Shown here piece after piece: positions 7,294 to 43,456 of a stretch of DNA of 64,000 nt (the stretch's first letter is position 1; each line of letters starts with the position of its first letter). The DNA comes from Allomyces macrogynus ATCC 38327. Its lineage: Eukaryota > Blastocladiomycota > Blastocladiomycetes > Blastocladiales > Blastocladiaceae. The notes below the pieces were generated by a model, which saw only the letters and a list, made by a program, of their open reading frames with translations, was not told the DNA's origin and searched no databases. The stretch covers positions 730,154 through 794,153 of the forward strand of contig GG745329.1 in NCBI GenBank assembly GCA_000151295.1, written 5' to 3'. The position numbers and the translations under genes were made by a program.

Positions 7294-7896
7294 TTGACGC
7301 GGATTGAGAGTCTAGTTTTATTTATTCTCGCGCATGGCGGCCGGGCCCATGGCCTTGCGCTCTGGTCCATGATACATATTGACATTTTCTGGAGCATCTC
7401 TTCGTCTTTTTCTCGCGAGTCTGGGAAGAGCTGGTGGACGGCGGCTGCCGTCGCAGCTGGCACGCTGGCAACGGTTTCGAGCAGTGATCATGGGTACATC
7501 TGTTCAAAAGCACATGACCGCGTCGATGTCAACACGGGTCAGAACGATCAAACTGGAGGGTGCAGCCTCTGGACCTGATCGCACCTTCACCCTCGAATGA
7601 CCTGCCCGCTGCACATTTGACAACTGCCCGCAAATTACTCTCGACGCTCCACTTATTCGACAAGACCGGCCCTCGAGGGCCGCAACGATCATTGGTCGCG
7701 TTCCGACGCCCATCCCAACGTATGCCAAATGATCACGAATCCCTCGTTCCGCCATCTTGAGCCCAGTCAACCCGAATGCAGCGCCTTGCCTCCTTTCACA
7801 CTCGATCAACATCTGATGATCCAGCGGCGACGGCGGCCTTTAAACCCGTAGCGCTATTGACACCCGGCCAAGCCTCTTCGAATCCACCCGCGGGCT
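7294..7896. other. Intergenic, NTO1 3' flank and RSP3 promoter
   Basis: About 600 bp with no supported gene. An AT-rich stretch, ttttatttattctcg, shortly after the NTO1 stop may belong to the 3' end signals. No clear TATA box precedes the radial spoke gene. Confidence 0.5.
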
Positions 7897-9385
7897 ATGA
7901 TGAATGCGCAGTATGCGTATGCCTCGGAGCCGCGGCCGGCCGTGGCGGCGACGCAGCGCAAGGCAAAATACCGCTCCGATGAGCCAGCGGGGTACGCAGC
8001 GCCAACTGCGTCCCATAGCCGATGCGCAGCGTGCACCTGATGGCTCCGCTCCTACCCCAGCAACTTGCCGCCAAACCGGCCCGTAAACATCATGTACGAC
8101 CGCCGCATCTATCGCGGTAATACGTATGCGTCGCCGATCCTCCCTGCCGTACGCTTTTTAGTTCCCCGCGTCAGTCGCGGTGGCACGACCGCTGACGCCC
8201 CTTGATTTTGGAATAGTACACGCAACCCGATGCGCTCGACCAGCAGCGGCAAATGCAGCTAAAGCGCAAGCTCAAGGCCGCGCGGCGCGCCGAGCTGCAG
8301 CGCCGCCCGCGCACGCCCGACGCGGTCGAAGGCCGCATCCACATGGAAGTGCAGACCGAGCTCTACCTCGAGGAACTGAGCGACACGGTGCCCGAGGCCG
8401 CCGTCGGCACGCAGACCGATGCCTTTCTCGACCGTGCACCGTCGCCGCTCTACATCCCGGCCAAACTCGGCGTCGACGTGGCAACGCAAATCGCTGACGG
8501 CGATCTGTTCGACTTTGACGTGGAGGTGGAGCCGCTGCTCGAGGTGCTTGTCGGCAAGACGCTCGACCAGGCGCGCGCCGAAGTGCTCGAGGAGGCCGAG
8601 CTTGCCGGGTTGCGCCGCAGGCAGCGCGATTTCGCGGCGCGTCGTCAGGCTGAGCTCGTCGAGGTGCAGCGGCTCGAGCAGGCCGAGCGCCGCCGTGTCG
8701 AGGAAAAGGAGCGCCGCAAGGCCGAGGCCGCGCGTGTGCTCGCCGAGAAGCAAGAATCGGCGGCCAAGGTTGCGGCCGCGTCGTTTGCCGCCGTCTACTT
8801 GGCCAACTTGGTGCCCGCCGCACTCGCATCACTCCAAGACGACGGGTTCTTCTACAATGCCCGCGAGCGGGAGATTCAGCAAACGTTCTTGCCGTGGCTC
8901 ACGAGCCAAGTCGACGCGCGCGTCCAGCGGCTCGCCGTGGCTCGGCAGCTGCTCGATGGTACGATTCTGTCGTGGTTCGATGACGGTACCGCTCGCCTGA
9001 CACACTGTTCTCGACATCAATAGGGCTCCTGGAAGCGGCCGTCAAGCAGATCACGCCCGCGGCACCAGCACCTGCTCCTCAAGCGCCCGCATCGGCCGCC
9101 GACCCAGTCGCGTCGACAACGTCCAACAACTCGATGGCGGTGGACTCGACTAACCAGCCCGACCAGCCCACGTCGCCCGCTAATGGCAGCGAGTCGGGCA
9201 GCGCCGCACCGTCCACGGACGAAGTGCCCGCCAAGGCCACCGACGATGGCGATGGCGATGCAGACGCCGCTGCAGCCCCAGAATCGGAGGCGCAGCCCGC
9301 TGACGCACTCAACGACCAGCAAGGCGATCAGAAGCCATCCGAAGGAGAGACGGCTGCGGCGGACGCCAGCGCCGAGGAGACGTGA
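7897..9385 (+). CDS. RSPH3: Radial spoke protein 3 (RSPH3), axonemal
   Basis: Exons 7897-7991, 8061-8148, 8217-8985 and 9024-9385 join in frame to give about 437 aa. Family knowledge: RSP3 forms the spoke-stalk dimer and is an A-kinase anchoring protein in motile cilia. The start encodes Tyr-Ala-Tyr-Ala-Ser-Glu-Pro-Arg-Pro and a Lys-Tyr-Arg motif, the conserved RSP3 N-terminus. Exon 2 supplies Asn-Ile-Met-Tyr-Asp-Arg-Arg and Arg-Gly-Asn-Thr-Tyr-Ala. Exon 3 has Gln-Thr-Glu-Leu-Tyr-Leu-Glu-Glu-Leu and a later Thr-Gln-Thr-Asp, then a long charged helix (about 8500-8760). The C-terminal exon is an acidic, Ala/Pro-rich tail. The third intron (8986-9023) is only 38 nt. A second ATG directly follows the first, so the start may be one codon later. 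Presence of this gene implies a motile flagellum. Confidence 0.95.
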
Positions 9386-35225: not shown

Positions 35226-36062
35226 CTACAGCGCGCCGTTCGTCGGCGGCAGGTCCTTGACGACGACCCACGAGTCGATATCGCTATAATCGTCACTGCC
35301 GTTGTAGCGCATATCAATGGACGCATAGACTGTGTACCCACAGTTGCGCAAGTTCGCAAGCAACTGCGCAACCGTCCACCGTGCGGCCATGGACTCTTCG
35401 GTGCCGTACGCGTGCCAAGGATTCCCGTTCAGCTTGAACTCGACGGCGCCCTCATAGTCGCGAACGTGGGCAAGCCCGCGCGCCCAGTACTCGTCAAGGA
35501 CCGACCGCACGAGTACAGGCACATCGTCAGGCCCGCCAATCACGCGCAGCCGGTCGCTGCGGTTGAACGAGACGGCAAACACATATGTCGGGTCCGGCAC
35601 GACATAGGGCGCAGAACGTAACAGAATCCAGGCGTCTTTGTCGTGCTCGCGCTTGGACGTGTCGGACGTGAGTGCGAGCCGCCACCCGAGCGCCAGGAGC
35701 GTGCGGAACACGGCCACGACGAGCCGGCGCGCGGAGACCGCGTCGGGTCCCTGTGCGACCCACGGCGTGCCGTGCAACTTGAACTTGAACATGCGTACGC
35801 CGCGCGGCGCGTCCCTCGTATACTCCTTCATGCGGTCGATGCCGCGCGGCCAAGATGAGGCAATAGCGGTGCGAATCGCTGCAAAATCGTTGTCACTCGA
35901 GATACCGCACACGCGCAGCGTGTCAGTGCTGTGCAGCGACACGAGCGCGACGGCCTCGTCAAACTGGTACGCTGGCAAGTCGTCGTTCATCAGGGCCTGC
36001 TTGGCCGGCAGCGCCGCGGGCGCGGCGTGAGGGCCGCTGCTGGAGCTGGATCCGCCGAGCAT
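35226..36062 (-). CDS. Two-repeat protein of unknown family, paralogue 1
   Basis: A single exon of about 278 aa from ATG 36062. After a Ser/Pro/Ala-rich leader of about 30 residues the protein consists of two related modules. Module 1 (about 32-150) has Val-Ser-Leu-His-Ser, Arg-Val-Cys-Gly, a Trp-Pro-Arg-Gly turn, Phe-Lys-Leu-His-Gly-Thr-Pro-Trp and Asp-Ala-Trp-Ile-Leu-Leu. Module 2 (about 158-270) has Val-Ser-Phe-Asn-Arg, Arg-Val-Ile-Gly, Phe-Lys-Leu-Asn-Gly-Asn-Pro-Trp and Asp-Ser-Trp-Val-Val-Val. The pattern suggests an alpha/beta fold duplicated in one chain. No catalytic residues, signal peptide or membrane segment are evident. It is one of three copies in the same orientation (with 41544-36524, broken, and 42976-42128). 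I do not recognise a function. Confidence 0.8.
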   Translation of the reverse strand: MLGGSSSSSGPHAAPAALPAKQALMNDDLPAYQFDEAVALVSLHSTDTLRVCGISSDNDFAAIRTAIASSWPRGIDRMKEYTRDAPRGVRMFKFKLHGTPWVAQGPDAVSARRLVVAVFRTLLALGWRLALTSDTSKREHDKDAWILLRSAPYVVPDPTYVFAVSFNRSDRLRVIGGPDDVPVLVRSVLDEYWARGLAHVRDYEGAVEFKLNGNPWHAYGTEESMAARWTVAQLLANLRNCGYTVYASIDMRYNGSDDYSDIDSWVVVKDLPPTNGAL

Positions 36063-36523
36063 CGTCCGAGAGGTTTTGCTTTGCCGAGATACCGGTGCTG
36101 AACAAGATAGAAATGCGGTGGTGCGGGGTTGTTGAAGGAGAGAGAGGAAGCAGAAATGATCGAGAAGCGATGGAAAAGTGGGCAGGGGCAACACCAAAAT
36201 TTGTTGATGGCATGAACCTGGCAAGTGTGGCTTTGCTCTCATGTTTCGACACTTCCTGCAACTTGCAGACCACAGTTTTGTCGTCCATCCTCACCTCGCT
36301 CTTGTGGGCGACCAGATTGCACCAGCGTCTTGGATCTCATCGCGCGATGGTGGCGACCATAATGTCCACCCTCCCCATGTGCCTGACAGTGGCAGCCATT
36401 GCCCTTTGCGCCCACCACTCCAGATTTAGCAGCATGGGCCATTTGAGGTTATATTCCCTGCTGCCACCCTCCTTTGAGTACAACAACAACTCATAGAAAA
36501 CAGAAATCAGACGCGTTCGATCT
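36063..36523. other. Upstream flank of paralogue 1, sharing sequence with the flank of paralogue 2
   Basis: The segment gcgcgatggtggcg near 36340 also occurs at about 41932, in each case just downstream of another family member's stop. This suggests duplication of gene-plus-flank units. No separate gene is supported. Confidence 0.5.
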
Positions 36524-36604
36524 TTACAGCACGCCATGAACTGGCGGCAGGCCCTTGACAACAATCCACAAATCGATAAATGCTCTTGTTCTCACTCTAC
36601 TCTT
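36524..36604 (-). pseudogene. 3' fragment of a broken two-repeat family copy
   Basis: Read on the minus strand this ends in Ile-Asp-Leu-Trp-Ile-Val-Val-Lys-Gly-Leu-Pro-Pro and a taa stop. It matches the C-terminus of paralogue 1 (Ile-Asp-Ser-Trp-Val-Val-Val-Lys-Asp-Leu-Pro-Pro). Homology fades at about 36590-36604, where the mobile-element-like block begins. CpG sites of the intact copies are TpG or CpA here. With 41125-41544 it makes up the two ends of one ancestral gene, the second module having been lost. Confidence 0.75.
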
Positions 36605-39520
36605 GTCATGTGGCAGCCGCCTACCCGCCATGGCGCCCAAGTCCAACTCAGCCGACTTGCCATGTGGTGGGTTGGTCTTGATGCGGCTATTGCAGGTCCT
36701 TGTTGATCACATCTGTACACTGCTGCTTATGTTGCGCCTGTTAGATACAGTCACGCTCATGATGTATGTGATGGCCAAGCTGATGGTGCTGCTGATGCTG
36801 GCAACATGGACAAATGGGACTTGGTGGTCAAGGGTTCCAACCACATGCAAAAGATGCAGATTGATTCTAGACTGATTTGGCTCCATCAGAATGCAATAAC
36901 AAAACCCATGGAAGAAACTGATCATTGATGAAATCCACGTCCTCTTCCAGATCTTCCACTACCTGCCTGAGGCGCAACCATACCCTGGCATGCTGTCTTG
37001 GTCAAAAATGGCACTGGCTGACATGGTAGCCAAAAGCAGGCTGGGCAACTACCAGCCACACTCATGGATGGTCTCTTTGGCGAGTGCACAGCTGACATGG
37101 TTGGGAACCAGTCTGGTTGGCATGCACTGCTCAACTATGTGGCCATGGCACAGCAGGTGGCCAATGAACATTTTGACCATGTTGGTGTGTTTCCAAGCTT
37201 GACCCAATGACCCTGACACAGTCAAGGGCCAAGCAGCAATTGTTAGGCTTGTTGCGCTGATTTTTGGACAAGAAGCGGCCCAACTTGCAGGAAATGTTTT
37301 TGCATCTTGCTGCCAATTAGCATGCCAAGCTCATGAACTTGTTGCAGCAGCAGCAGCAGTGGCTCAAGTCAACTGGAATGCATATGCAGGTGCACATGGA
37401 CGCGTCTTTGGCGGCATGAGACAAGGAGTGCAAGGATGCCACAGCAGGCAAAAGGAGGAGATGCAGGCCAAGGTCAATCAGTGCCATACCTGCAACCAGC
37501 AGAAGGATGCTTGTTGTCATGCACACAAACGCGCTGAAAAGTTGCAGTACACAAGCGAGATGCACTTGCAGACGCACAATGCAGCCAGCAAGGTCTGGGG
37601 AGTGGCCTGGTGGTGGTGACGGGTTGGCCAGCACCATTGGCTGCTGAAGACCTTGAGACGCATGGGTTGTTGATTGCAATCCAGTGCATTATCCCAACAC
37701 CACAGATCACAGCTCCAATCATGGACATGCATGCTCAGCAAGAGCGTCATGATGCTGATCATGAAATTCGCACATGTATCTGGCAAGATGAGGGCCCAGG
37801 TTGCATCATGAATAAGTGCTGCAATGTGTGCAAGTGTCACTGCCATGGCAAGGCACTGCTGGATTTGTGGCCAAAGCAGAATTGCAAGTGGTGTAAGAAG
37901 AAGTTGAAAAAGGCACATGGGAACTTGACAAAGCCCAGGGAACCACTGTGCACAACCAAGGACCAGATGAGGCCTTGGGAGCACAAACATGTTGCCAAGA
38001 TCTTGATGGCAGTGGCCATCACACACTGTGACAATTTGTGCACACAATTCACCAGTCCCATGCTGCACTGGATCCAGCTGATTAAGATTGCACAACAACT
38101 TGATGTGGTGGCACAGGACCTCAAGATGCTCAAGAATGGTGGGATACCCTACTCAGGTGCCAATCTCAACACAAACGTGATTGAGCAGCTCAAGCTCCCA
38201 ACACCAACAATTATGCTGGTCTTTGCTACAAAGTGCCACACAACTACTGTTGACTGTGTGTTCATCAATGATTATCTGGTCAATGGTGGAGGATGCCACA
38301 TTGCTGAATGCAAAAAGGAACACATTGAGGAAGAGCTCAGGGCAACAGGCTCAAAGTCAATGTGGGGCAAGGTGGTTGAGGATCTCAAGGAATTGGCCAA
38401 TGAGGTCCAGACCTGTGCATTGACAACTTGGCCTGTACTTCAGCCACAGTTTTGCAACCCAGTGTACTTGACTGTGCCTGTGTACAAGTACAAGGGCAAG
38501 TGCAATGGTGTGGAGGGTGAGGATGGCACCAAGGATGAGAACAAGGATGCTGGTGCCAATGTTGATGTGCTGGCATTGGACATGATGGTTGGCAGCAGGG
38601 TGTGGCACACCAAGATTGACAGCTGGATGTGGACCATGGATGGGTACATGGCCATGCTACTGCATTTACATCATGTATGTATCTTTGCTTGCTGTTCTGC
38701 ATCTTCTCCACCCAACAATTTTTTCTTTCCCAGCAGCCAAGGGCAAAAACTGACTGGCAACATGTTCAACTTTGGTGAGGAGGACCCAGTGTGGATTGTG
38801 GGGTTCATTGGTGACAAAGTCAAGAGGGGCAGGAAGCCCATGAAGAACTCAATGGTGTTCACAGCAACAGGACCAATAATTGCTGGAGTGTCCTGTTGGT
38901 GCAGGGCTTTGACAAGTTTGCACCATACAAGCTGCATTGGACCAACCTTGATGTGTTCTCAGGTATTTGTGCCCTAGATCCAGGTCACCACACTCTGTTC
39001 TGTGCATTTGAGGCCTCAACTGATCATGTCATGCAGCTTGTGCAAGATGACAATGTGGATATCAGTGCAATTCTCAAGTTGTACACCAAGAAAAATGACG
39101 TCACCAGTGCCCATGTTTTGTTAGCTTGGCACATCATGTATGTGGCACCACATGGGCACAATGCAGCACTTGCAGTTTGTTGCCAAGTTTTGGCACAAGG
39201 ACCTGGTGCTGCACAACTATGACTCCAACATGCCATAGTTCAAGATGGTCAAGTGCAAAAAGGTGCTTGAGGCTGATGAGTATCAAGATATGCACATGTG
39301 CTGTTCTCTCCCAATTTCACTTTGAAACTTGTTAAAAACACCCTTCTATCCTGTACATCATGTACATGCCTTAGCCCAAGTGAATTAGTGTACAGGATGT
39401 GTACAGGAAAGGAGACCCTACAGACTCCTGAGCGATTCTCAATTGTGTACACTTTGACCATTCACTGTAAGCATGTTCTCAATGTGCACAATGTGGTGAG
39501 CACCTGAACCAGGCCAGGGG

Positions 39521-39564
39521 TGAACCAGTGCAAAACACACAGTGCAGCATCTCCCACTGGTTCA
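39521..39564. repeat. Inverted repeat, 10-bp arms
   Basis: The arms tgaaccagtg (39521-39530) and cactggttca (39555-39564) are perfectly complementary, with a 24-nt loop. It lies in the extra DNA between the RuvC-I and RuvC-II remnants. Confidence 0.75.
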
Positions 39565-40151
39565 TGGCAGAACTTTCCAGATGCAACCTTGATTGTGTTC
39601 ACCTCATACAGCCAGGTCCCTGCCATTGTCTCGCCAAGTCATGCTGTTGCATGTTGTTGATGGCTGTGTGCAAGACATTTGTCGCCATACAGTGTGACCA
39701 GGAAATTTACAGCATGACCTTGAAAACCTCCTGGGTCTGACTCACACCAAGAGGACTATGTGCCTGTCCCTCACACACTCATCAAAACTGTTCACCCTGA
39801 CCAATGTCAGAAGTTCCCCCAGCCCTTCAAAATCAAGAGAGCTCTATATAGAATCTGTCTTAAATGAAGGGCAGGGGGAATTCTTTGAGCTCTTACCCTG
39901 AGTGCCTACTCCCAGATGCTCCCAGATGCTGCCCTGACCTACCACAGATTGTGCCCCACTCATTGTGCCATCATTGACATGACCACCACACCATTCCTTG
40001 ATTGCCTACTGCACACACCCTTTATTCACTGACTGCTGCCCTTTGGGCACCATGGCACTGCCATTACTCTGAGTCACTCTGCCCCAGGGCACATGGTATT
40101 TCATAGTGGGTCATGACTAAATCACTTGGGGTAGTGAATCAGCGATAATAC

Positions 40152-40240
40152 TGCTGCCCTACAGGCAGCCCCCCTGCCCCCACCCCCACCCCCATGCTGC
40201 CCTACAGGCAGGTGTGGTGCTGCCCTTAAGGGCAGCACCA
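40152..40240. repeat. Direct repeats and a 26-nt perfect palindrome
   Basis: The segment gctgccctacaggcag occurs twice (about 40152 and 40196), separated by a C-rich tract. It is followed by a perfect 26-nt palindrome at 40215-40240 built on tgctgccctt/aagggcagca. It lies in the insertion-like DNA within the Fanzor remnant and may mark the end of a nested small element. Confidence 0.75.
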
Positions 40241-41124
40241 AGGACTGTGTGTGAAGTGTGTGAGACAAACTGTACAGCAGACCTTCTTCAGGAGAACTGT
40301 GCAGTAGGCTTCTTTGGAACAATGCACTGTCTTTGGGCACACGTTTTGGCGATTCATACTGCTTCTGTTGGTCACAGGCTGTGGTGTGACTGTCAGCTTT
40401 GCAGCAAAACAGGCACCTGCAAAACCCTGTATTTTCTTGCTGGGCTATTCGCCTCTGCTATATTGTCCATTCCACCTACCTGATACTCCTGTGTGCCCCC
40501 CCACAACGTGTGTGTTCTGGGCTGCATTGATTGCAGACTTGATGAAGGTGATTGGTGACTTGACCAAGCTGCCACTCCTGCTTGTTGGCCATGGTGGGAG
40601 GTACAACCCATGCAGCTTGTTGATGCCTGTGAAGAGTTTTTTTCGCATCAGTGTACACATGCTGGTGCACATGTGGTGTACATTGATGAAGGTTGGACAG
40701 GTCAACATTGTGCAGTCTGTGGTTGGTTGCTGGTGCAAGTTGATGGTCAGTGGGGCTCAAAAAAGTGCATGGGTGAGGGCTCATGTCGTCACATGCACAC
40801 TCATGATTGGTCAGCTGCATTCAACATCCTCCAGTGCATGATTTGTGATGTGATCATAAACTTGGTCATGTTGGGTGTGTGGCAGCAGCACCCACTTACA
40901 CAGGAACTGCAGTACCATTATGTCAGCAATGAACAAGTATTTCCAAACCAAGACGTGGAGGGTGGTGGTGATGGGGAAGAGGCCTTTTATGAGCACACCT
41001 CCCATTTTTGTATCCAGACATTTTTTGTGGCTTTGTGGACACTCTTGTCTATGATAGCCAGAGCCCCATTGGCTAGCACTTGCTTGCAAGCGAGAGCAGC
41101 ATGCAGGGGTGAAAATATGTATTT

Positions 41125-41544
41125 AATACACGCGTCTTTGTTGTGTTTGTGCTTGGACATATCAGCTGTGAGCACAAGTTGCCAGCCAAGCACTGTGAGT
41201 GCAAGTTGCCAGCCAAGTGCCAAGAGCATGCAGAATATCATGGCTACAAGCTTGCACACGAGCATGGCGTCAGACCCTTGTGCATTCCACCATGATCCGT
41301 TCAGCTTGATCTTGATCATGTGCACACTGTGTGGGGCATTGACAGTGTACTCTTGGACCTTGGCAATGCCCTGCAGCCACACTGACGCGATTGTTGTACA
41401 CAATGCCATGGGCTCACTGTCGCTTGAAATGCCCATTATGCACATCTTGTTGTCATTGTGCAATGAGATGAGCGTGATGGCTTGGTCATACTGGTACACA
41501 GGGGCTGCACCACTCGACATGGCCTGTTTGGAGTCACTGAGCAT
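41125..41544 (-). pseudogene. 5' fragment of the broken two-repeat family copy
   Basis: From ATG 41544 the minus strand reads as module 1 of the two-repeat family (Tyr-Gln-Tyr-Asp-Gln-Ala, Leu-Ile-Ser-Leu-His, Leu-Ala-Leu-Gly-Trp-Gln-Leu) down to Lys-His-Asn-Lys-Asp-Ala. Homology then stops at about 41125 and element sequence begins. Arg-Glu-His-Asp of the intact copies has become His-Lys-His-Asn, exactly what CpG to CpA changes produce. A 27-bp tandem duplication at about 41175-41217 repeats the Gly-Trp-Gln-Leu segment. About 115 codons of the second module are missing before the remaining 3' fragment at 36524-36604. Confidence 0.8.
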
Positions 41545-42127
41545 GGTGGAGGGTCTTGATCTGGTGGGTGGGAAGAGAGCGGCACGGTGGCGAGCTGCCA
41601 TGGAGGTTGAGGGTGGAGAAGAGAGAGAACGTGGAAGGAACCACGTATTTATGATTGATCGATCAAGGAAGACAGGCAATGCGCGCATTGATCGCGGACG
41701 AACGCGCAATGGCGTATCAGGCACCAGACCTACCTAAACTCGTGACAAGAACAGTTACTGATGTCCCTAGCGAGGACATATACAGAACAGATGTGGGAAC
41801 AGTGCTTTATCCACATTTCGATTGAGACAGGGTCGATTGCGCGCGCACCGGCCTTGTCGTCCAGGCTCAATGACCGTAGTTCATTCCGTTGGCCAATCGC
41901 AGCTGTTTCGCCCACTAGATTGTGCACAATAACGCGCGATGGTGGCGGCGACCTTCATCCTCGCCCCTTTGACGCTGCCGAGTCGGACAACCAATTGACG
42001 CGAAAAACAACTTGGACGCTGCTGTATTATCCACCCAGCCGCTCGTCCAACATGAGATACAGAAGCCATTATTTATGTTGATACCCCCGAAATCAGATCC
42101 GCGCCCCCGGCGCGATCCTCCACACAT
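41545..42127. other. Spacer between the broken copy and paralogue 2
   Basis: CpG-poor up to about 41640, then normal GC-rich sequence. It contains the flank motif gcgcgatggtggcg shared with 36340. No gene is supported. Confidence 0.5.
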
Positions 42128-42976
42128 CTAATACGCGCCATACGTTGGCGGCAAATCCTTCACAACAATCCAGGAATCTATATCGCTCTCGTCGTCGCTA
42201 TTCGTGTTATACCGCATGTCGATCGACGCGTAGACCGTATACCCGTAATTCTTCAAGTGCGCCAGTAACTGCGCAATCATCCACCGCGACGCCATGGTCT
42301 CTTGCGTGCCCAACGGGTACCACGGCTTCCCATTCAATTTATACTCGAGCGCGCCCTGATAATCGAGCACTTGCGCGACCCCCTTGCTCCACACGCGATC
42401 GAGCACCGACCGCACCAGCACCGGCACGTCGTCGGGCGCATCAATCACGCGCAGTCGGTCGTACCGGTTGAACGAGATCGCAAACACGTGCCGCGGGTCC
42501 GCGACCGCGTAGGGCGCCGCACGCAACAAAATCCACGCATCTTTGTCGTGTTCGCGCTTGGACGTATCGGAGGTCAGCGCGAGCCGCCAACCGAGAGCGA
42601 GCAACGTGCGGAAAATGGCCGCCACGAGCCGCCGAGCCAGCACGGCGTCGGGCCCCTGCGCGAGCCACGGCATCCCGTGCAGCTTGTACTTGACCATGCG
42701 CACGCCGGGCGTCGGGGACTCGGCGTCGGTGTATTCCTTGACGCGGTCGATCCCGCGTGGCCAGGACGCGGCAATCGCGGCACGGAGTGACGACACGTCC
42801 GTGTCCGACGAGAGGCCGCACACGCGCACCGTGTCGTGGCTGTGCAGCGAGACGAGCGCGACGGCCTGGTCGTACTGGTACAGTGGAAGTTCGTTGCCGG
42901 CCTCGGCCGCGAGCTTGGGGGGTAGCGGCGGCGCTTGGTAGTCGTGGCCGCTGGAAGAGCTGGACGCGTCGATCAT
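42128..42976 (-). CDS. Two-repeat protein of unknown family, paralogue 2
   Basis: A single exon of about 282 aa from ATG 42976. The longer frame upstream would start with a non-ATG codon. It is highly similar along its whole length to paralogue 1: shared Ser-rich leader, Tyr-Asp-Gln-Ala-Val-Ala-Leu-Val-Ser-Leu-His-Ser, Trp-Pro-Arg-Gly-Ile-Asp, Ser-Lys-Arg-Glu-His-Asp-Lys-Asp-Ala-Trp-Ile-Leu-Leu, and the second module ending Val-Val-Lys-Asp-Leu-Pro-Pro. Differences are scattered substitutions and a few small indels, so both copies appear to be under constraint. Function unknown. Same orientation as the other copies, consistent with tandem duplication. Confidence 0.8.
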   Translation of the reverse strand: MIDASSSSSGHDYQAPPLPPKLAAEAGNELPLYQYDQAVALVSLHSHDTVRVCGLSSDTDVSSLRAAIAASWPRGIDRVKEYTDAESPTPGVRMVKYKLHGMPWLAQGPDAVLARRLVAAIFRTLLALGWRLALTSDTSKREHDKDAWILLRAAPYAVADPRHVFAISFNRYDRLRVIDAPDDVPVLVRSVLDRVWSKGVAQVLDYQGALEYKLNGKPWYPLGTQETMASRWMIAQLLAHLKNYGYTVYASIDMRYNTNSDDESDIDSWIVVKDLPPTYGAY

Positions 42977-43456
42977 GTCTGCTTGGGTGTGGTGGTGGTC
43001 GTTGAGGATTTGTTGTTGACGAGGTTGGTGAGCCAAGGCAGCGATGGGCGTGAGGGAGAAACGAGGATTTTAAGGAGCTCGATCGCGATGTTGAGCAGGC
43101 TGCGCCAGCAAAGGAAGCGCGAGCCTAATTCCTGGGAGCCCCACCAAAAAGACGCAAGAAAAAGCCGAGGAACAACACGTCAAGCTGAAGTGCCGCACGT
43201 CAAACAAAAGCCCAACACGTCAACGTAAAGAATGTTGAAATTTACGTGCATTGAATTGCTTCCAGAACAAGGAATCCCCACAAAATGATTCGAGCTTTCG
43301 GCGATCTTAATAAGCACATGCACCACGAAAGGGGCGAGGAAATACGGCCGCTCGTGTGCGGCCTGGCACATTGCCGCCAACCACGCGCCAACACAACGCG
43401 GCACGGCACGGTGCCGCCATCTAAAAGAGTGGGTGGGTTACGCGACAGCGGCCCGC
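42977..43456. other. Intergenic, promoter of paralogue 2
   Basis: About 480 bp. An AT-rich stretch (ttttaagga, near 43068) about 95 bp upstream of the ATG could act as a TATA element on the minus strand. Nothing else is supported. Confidence 0.4.

Follow-up and report, generated by a model that had tools for sequence, protein, structure and literature searches.

A CpG-depleted Fanzor remnant between the halves of a split gene in the blastocladian fungus Allomyces macrogynus

The Fanzor remnant and its surroundings

The window analysed here, i.e. the whole 64-kb stretch of contig GG745329.1 from Allomyces macrogynus ATCC 38327, contains on its plus strand a degraded element of ~4.5 kb, and motifs and homology support the presence in it of the remnant of a gene of the TnpB/Fanzor family (Table 1). 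Fanzors are RNA-guided DNA nucleases; in other members of the family, a guide RNA from the end of the element is used for cutting matching DNA. An earlier note, made from the letters of this stretch, had proposed a Fanzor remnant in the genome of a flagellated fungus. The first part is borne out by a Pfam match, by related loci elsewhere in the genome and by a family profile that leads to TnpB-type structures, and the second by the source, A. macrogynus being a blastocladian fungus (Blastocladiomycota). The genome also encodes a rhodopsin fused to a guanylyl cyclase, a fusion that is a mark of Blastocladiomycota.

The motif blocks TMDG, ALDPG, GHGGRYNP/MPVK, IDEGWTG/CAVC and THDWSAAFNI were all found where the earlier note had placed them, on the plus strand and in the order expected for TnpB/Fanzor; they are spread over four frame segments (frames 2, 1, 0, 2) instead of the five that it had counted. 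The extent that it had given, 37610 to 40841, covers a real feature but falls short of the element, which reaches from ~36610 to a right bound between 41124 and 41130. The uncertainty stems from AATACA at 41125-41130, which is compatible with the end of the element and with the host gene alike. When eight frames of the window were scanned with Pfam, one of them, the zinc-ribbon frame at 40559-41734, matched PF07282 (Cas12f1-like TNB domain) with its residues 26-90 (27.6 bits, curated cut-off 26.3, E 3.4e-6). The N-terminal frame matches two other loci of the genome, C61 (E 2.8e-22) and C40 (E 1.4e-17), and both C-terminal frames are also matched by C61, further downstream and in order, so that pieces searched separately meet at one locus. 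As a control, all frames of at least 40 amino acids (aa) in 36610-41124 were compared with the nine other Fanzor loci (tblastn, E<=1e-3): matches were given by 3 of 28 frames on the plus strand and by 4 of 38 on the minus strand, the latter in antisense at the places of the plus-strand matches.

The window copy is dead, with damaged motifs and its CpGs almost erased. It departs from the published motif D-X(125,275)-[TS]-[TS]-X-X-C4-X(5,50)-RD (PMC3627910) because it has decayed: the D is kept in ALDPG and the four cysteines are kept at odd spacing, TS is now TG and RD is now HD, and the parts of the motif lie in different frames. No transposase was seen in this copy, and Rfam gave no match in the window. 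Part of the frame breaks can be ascribed to what is probably an intron and to a nested insert. The putative intron is likely to occupy the same place as an intron of the related locus C64, which is also skipped by a predicted protein of A. arbusculus. In the RuvC region, a second repeat is inserted, whose right edge is firm, the repeat segment stopping at 40512 and Fanzor homology (to C61, C47 and C69) restarting at 40515. Its left edge is uncertain within 39286-39308: the repeat match begins at 39286, and a possible target duplication, TGTTCT at 39302 and 40513, would put the edge at 39308; the search for such duplications turned up two shared 6-mers, about the chance expectation. A perfect palindrome of 26 nucleotides (nt) at 40215-40240 adjoins the repeat segment.

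Three copies of a host gene form a tandem cluster on the minus strand (35226-43069), and the Fanzor element sits between the tail and the head of one of them, which is split and lacks ~319 bp of the gene between these two parts. Among the six flanking and host frames scanned with Pfam, none gave a domain over cut-off.

Table 1. Coordinates of the element, its parts, the host gene and the best-kept relative (window positions unless a locus is named)
Feature	Position	Strand	Basis or remark
Whole degraded element, ~4.5 kb	36610-41124	+	Left bound set by end of host-gene homology
N-terminal Fanzor frame, 479 aa, through likely intron and TxDG box	37538-38974	+	Matches C61, C40
TMDG box (TTNG in C64, TSDG in C40)	38633-38644	+	Motif reading
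Putative intron, GT...AG, 59 nt, just 3' of TxDG box	38675-38733 (or to 38736)	+	
RuvC-I, ALDPG	38971-38985	+	Motif reading
Nested insert, ~1.2 kb	39286-40512		Repeat matches, Fanzor homology
End segment of repeat family, ~0.95-1.1 kb long elsewhere	40241-40512		Own-genome matches
GHGGRYNP...MPVK block, frame 0	40587-40634	+	tblastn of frame: C61 E 7.9e-13, C47 E 1.6e-8
GHGGRYNP; MPVK	40587-40610; 40623-40634	+	Motif reading
RuvC-II DE, zinc ribbon, RuvC-III: IDEGWTGQHCAVC...KKCMGEGSC...THDWSAAFNI, frame 2	40682-40828	+	PF07282; tblastn C69 E 1.4e-15
IDEGWTG; CAVC; KKCMGEGSC; THDWSAAFNI	40682-40702; 40709-40720; 40760-40786; 40799-40828	+	Motif reading
Right terminus, related to 3' end of other copies; last six letters overlap host homology	41099-41130	+	Motif match
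Host-gene paralog A, open frame, no Pfam match	35226-36290	-	Frame and Pfam scan
Tail of split third host-gene copy	36532-36609	-	Aligned to paralog 42136-42210
Head of split third host-gene copy	41125-41498	-	Aligned to paralog 42530-42882
Host-gene paralog C, open frame, no Pfam match	42128-43069	-	Frame and Pfam scan
Well-kept Fanzor gene	L009:2589-7657 (C64:429.6k-434.7k)		At least three exons, all motifs
Ulp1-type protease frame, downstream of C64 Fanzor	L009:8653-9999		PF02902 E 2.3e-29

Relatives in the genome and their common end

Searching the genome (54.0 Mb in 75 contigs) with PF07282 gave eight places, seven of them above cut-off, the window among these; the relatives reach 49.3 (C64), 43.2 (C69) and 30.7 bits (C73), C48 has 25.5 bits as a frame and 27.1 in the genome search, and C71, with 24.0 bits, lies below cut-off. 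At least ten Fanzor loci are found when the window is included (C64, C69, C47, C73, C53, C48, C71, C61, C40, C74), a lower bound in that the searches score best candidates only. They fall into about five nucleotide groups (C40/C53/C71, C47/C61/C69, C48/C73, C64 and the window), the first two of which are joined at ~65-71%, with a few short cross-matches besides. Among the copies compared, C53 being set aside, the RuvC-I site reads VDPG in C64, C73 and C40, VDPS in C48 and IDPT in C47, and was not found in C69, C61 and C71. C40 carries the stretch after the N-terminal part up to the DE of RuvC-II, and no zinc ribbon was found there. AMAG_13307 of A. macrogynus ATCC 38327, a protein of 289 aa, is matched over its whole length with 100% identity by an open frame of C48; this identity and the interrupted gene mark the host of the family as eukaryotic.

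A profile built from eight pieces of the family (C61 and C40 left out) has its best match among PDB structures in a TnpB-like mimivirus protein, L79 (PDB 9b0l, E 7.2e-7). The first 20 matches are all TnpB/OrfB, Fanzor, Cas12f/Cas14, LaTranC, 'transposase' or designed RNA-guided nucleases, 11 of them at E<=0.001. Fanzor 1 of Parasitella parasitica (PDB 9cf0) stands at E 0.17, which is not significant by itself; with C64 as the sole query it is reached at E 0.091, and L79 at E 0.13. Both structures are distant, their matches being limited to the zinc ribbon and its neighbourhood.

More intact copies, which the earlier note had thought possible, exist at one locus, C64; at least C73, C48, C71 and C40 are broken. 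The CpG-rich C73 and C48 were considered as intact copies and rejected, their frames breaking near RuvC-I. The C64 locus has two long open frames of 857 and 560 codons flanking a GT...AG intron. A predicted A. arbusculus protein of 1227 aa, GGF31_001143, covers 58% of the first frame with a match of 86%; in the second, which holds the catalytic part, it agrees in 334 of 349 residues (96%), and its step from one frame to the next falls precisely on the C64 intron. Its first residues are encoded in an upstream C64 frame (L009:2589-3290), and the C64 gene therefore has at least three exons. The frame L009:5978-7657 carries the published TnpB/Fanzor motif, as D67, 179 residues, T247-S248, two residues, C251/C254/C277/C280, five residues and R286-D287, and D67, T247-S248, the four cysteines and R286-D287 are kept in both C64 and the A. 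arbusculus protein. Residues 40-330 of this frame gave no protein-database match at E<=0.001, a limit of the search, since the 1227-aa protein lies beyond its length range. DNA like that of the C64 locus occurs elsewhere, L009 2695-4400 at C73:974k (77%) and 7630-9052 at C45:286k (71%), and its protease region resembles C63 and C55 (82%); a repeated element is therefore favoured over a single-copy adopted gene.

When the copies were aligned for the ends of the element, as the earlier note had advised, a common right end emerged in C53, C40 and C69; it also occurs in two short pieces, one at C64:779k and one at C62:865k, and its first part recurs in C71. A genome-wide search with 25 nt of this end, allowing up to three mismatches, gave five places and none in the control; the window end is absent from them because it has drifted further and differs at more than three places. 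The best ungapped match to the right-end motif on either strand of the window lies at 41099 (22 of 34), where the host gene resumes, and with gaps its score is reached by 1 of 638 window chunks. The shared terminus, the related window end and the split host gene place the Fanzor family in a mobile element. No outstanding reverse-strand match to the motif, as expected of terminal inverted repeats, was seen in the window. The segment of 135-160 nt conserved at the 3' side was searched for a guide RNA, whose rules the earlier note had hoped to read from the copies. This hope was disappointed: in none of the seven copies does the segment fold better than shuffles (z -0.83 to +1.24), and in an alignment of six copies the covariation score is reached by 15 of 500 shuffles and the number of pairs changed on both sides by 229 of 500, so that the predicted helices have weak support.

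CpG erosion and a DNMT1-like gene

The CpG observed-to-expected ratio (CpG o/e) is 0.13 in the element against 1.34 in its flanks; the element holds 37 CpGs in 4515 nt, or 8.2 per kb, as compared with 130.7 per kb in the 56 kb of remaining window. The 19 of 255 half-kilobase windows with a CpG o/e below 0.6 are all contiguous, at 36501-41500. The head of the split host-gene copy keeps only 3 of the 44 CpGs common to both open paralogs, of which 32 are now TG or CA and 9 something else, and 77 of 130 CpGs are kept between the open paralogs A and C. In the split gene, transitions affect 35 of 88 CpG bases and, outside CpG, 18 of 95 C/G bases. The erosion has a bias to CpG and extends into the flanking host gene. 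The same bias is seen in the repeat family to which the end of the nested insert belongs, where transitions at CpG reach 35-41% as against 3-19% at other C positions in all six copies compared, the window segment included; four near-identical, CpG-richer copies were taken as the starting state, and L057, L058 and L061, which are short or more distant, were left out. In this family of ~1 kb (L046-L049 and window 40241-40512), some copies are 95-99% identical and others CpG-eroded.

A DNMT1-like cytosine methyltransferase gene is present. PF00145 gave 16 matches at about nine places of the genome, and at one of these (L069, C65:207000-210400) lies the DNMT1-like frame, which has at least 1025 codons; all of its 23 PDB matches at E<=1e-20 are DNMT1. 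A 2026 review describes near-undetectable 5-methylcytosine (5mC) in early-diverging fungi including Blastocladiomycota and 5mC on repeats in Phycomyces (PMC13297926), and Blastocladiomycota are listed in a 2021 review among the fungi surveyed for methyltransferases (PMC7862722). The CpG erosion in Allomyces is at odds with a near absence of 5mC as a general rule, at least in the past. In the open-licence full-text literature, nothing was found that joins Allomyces with 5-methylcytosine or with DNMT1.

Origin of the locus and its place among known systems

The locus is very probably the product of a Fanzor-carrying, DNA-level element that was inserted in a duplicated A. macrogynus host gene and then died, in part through loss of CpGs, putatively by methylation and deamination. 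In this course of events, a mobile element whose Fanzor would have been an active nuclease, perhaps with a guide RNA of its own, would have entered one copy of the duplicated gene; a second repeat would later have landed in the RuvC region, frames would have shifted, and CpGs would have turned into TpG or CpA, both in the element and over some hundred bases of the gene copy beside it. Methylation of CpG, perhaps by the DNMT1-type enzyme, followed by deamination appears the best mechanism for this loss.

Several points weigh against this account or narrow it. No target-site duplication was found in the flanks examined of the outer element, and this, together with the ~319 bp missing from the host gene, leaves a simple insertion unproven. 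Only four of the ten Fanzor copies are strongly CpG-poor (CpG o/e 0.13 in C74, 0.15 in C69, 0.20 in C47 and 0.31 in C61), the other six having values of 0.76-1.24; C73, C48, C71 and C40, which belong to the latter, have stops or frame breaks all the same, and CpG erosion therefore cannot alone account for the deaths. For the repeat family, the direction of change is assumed in a way that favours the CpG result, and the comparison of the split host gene, free of this assumption, concerns one gene. The pattern of erosion suggests that the host may have silenced the element by 5mC, with which it is consistent. Neither folding nor covariation of the 3' segment speaks for a guide RNA, and an AlphaFold model of the annotated C48 piece, based on four alignment rows, was useless (mean predicted local distance difference test score, pLDDT, 36.6).

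A chance origin of the ordered motifs is very unlikely, and it is scarcely credible that they are either accidental or part of an unrelated zinc-ribbon protein. Zinc ribbons are short, and the zinc-ribbon piece of the window alone has no match among PDB sequences at E<=1; against this stand the PF07282 score over cut-off, the collinearity of two separate pieces with C61, and the D-P of RuvC-I, present at the expected place here and in five other copies. Decay of the AT-rich block by a mutation process biased to CpA, like repeat-induced point mutation (RIP), or by general drift to AT, instead of through CpG methylation, is improbable. In all six copies of the second repeat family, CpA transitions do exceed those at CpC and CpT (9-19% against 3-13%), and methylation is a deduction; however, the rate at CpG in those copies is far above either, and TpA shows no rise over most of the CpG-poor island. 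Transitions biased to CpG therefore argue for methylated CpG and deamination rather than RIP. Spread of the copies as spliced RNA by way of a retrotransposon is likewise improbable, if anything a little more so: copies anchored at the 3' side and truncated at the 5' side, with an A-rich end, would fit it, but the intron found in C64 and, as it seems, at the same place in the window argues against it.

One-ended, Helitron-like spread, in which 3' ends are kept and 5' ends variably lost, would be compatible with insertion at the DNA level and merits some, though minor, credence. It would account for the variable left ends of the copies that share the 3' end (C53, C40, C69, C64:779k and C62:865k), and broken Helitron N-terminal domains (Helitron_like_N) occur at three loci of the genome. 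A precedent is found in the Fanzor1 elements CRe-1, CRe-2 and CRe-3 of Chlamydomonas, which belong to Helitron2 and likewise have 5'-truncated copies and intact 3' ends (PMC3627910). As a difference, neither target duplications nor shared Helitron ends were found for the Allomyces copies. None of the five places with the shared 3' end is a Helitron_like_N locus, the ends of the Helitrons themselves not having been read; flanking repeats beyond chance are absent from six of seven copies, C71 having a 7-mer that is reached by 15 of 300 shuffles, uncorrected for seven tests; and the 3' segment does not surpass shuffles in folding.

A broader proposal would hold that Allomyces runs, or once ran, a defence by CpG methylation that killed several Fanzor transposons and spilled into a neighbouring gene, and that the erosion-free C64 may be an RNA-guided nuclease that is active or was adopted by the host; it is put forward as a speculation and is rather unlikely as a whole. 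The pattern of erosion makes it testable whether blastocladian fungi methylate CpGs on transposons, and C64 with its predicted A. arbusculus relative is a concrete candidate for testing Fanzor activity in this lineage.

Three Fanzor1 families (AMa) of A. macrogynus ATCC 38327 were listed by Bao and Jurka in 2013 (Table 1 of PMC3627910), the only paper in the open-licence full-text literature in which Fanzor and Allomyces were found together. The system is therefore known, and the window copy adds at most a new member to it: taken as a Fanzor remnant, it is one more dead copy of a family already reported from this species, and what is new is the anatomy of the element and the footprint of CpG erosion. 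The AMa families share species, protein family and transposon setting with the loci described here and are probably the same set of elements, three families being listed against at least ten loci in about five nucleotide groups. SpuFz1 and other active Fanzors (PMC10432273) resemble the window copy in the TnpB-type protein, the flagellated-fungus host of SpuFz1 and the transposon setting; the window copy differs in being dead and in that no omegaRNA was found for it. The C64 relative is far longer than the SPu-1 protein of Spizellomyces, its A. arbusculus counterpart being predicted at 1227 aa as compared with 633 aa (listed in PMC3627910).

Other mobile DNA was also seen. At C61, a decayed PIF/Harbinger-type transposase (L019:6430-7152, DDE_Tnp_4 E 4.1e-11) adjoins the Fanzor copy, and this is a likeness to the Mucor MCi-5 Fanzor elements, which have a Harbinger transposase (PMC3627910); it was seen at one locus only, the other nine not having been searched systematically, and may be a chance neighbour. 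Long inverted repeats 15-22 kb apart on C60 (L053/L054, 1236 nt, 99.9%), C59 (L059/L060, 1224 nt, 99.8%) and C67 (L055/L056, 574 nt, 95%) are the ends of large, young-looking elements and resemble part of the nested insert. Polintons were considered for these and rejected, no DNA_pol_B_2 domain being over cut-off in the genome and a single weak match lying at C45:510k. At C62:865k, ~155 nt of Fanzor 3' end (L066:1462-1617) lie just past the stop codon of a long frame and perhaps form part of a host 3' untranslated region.

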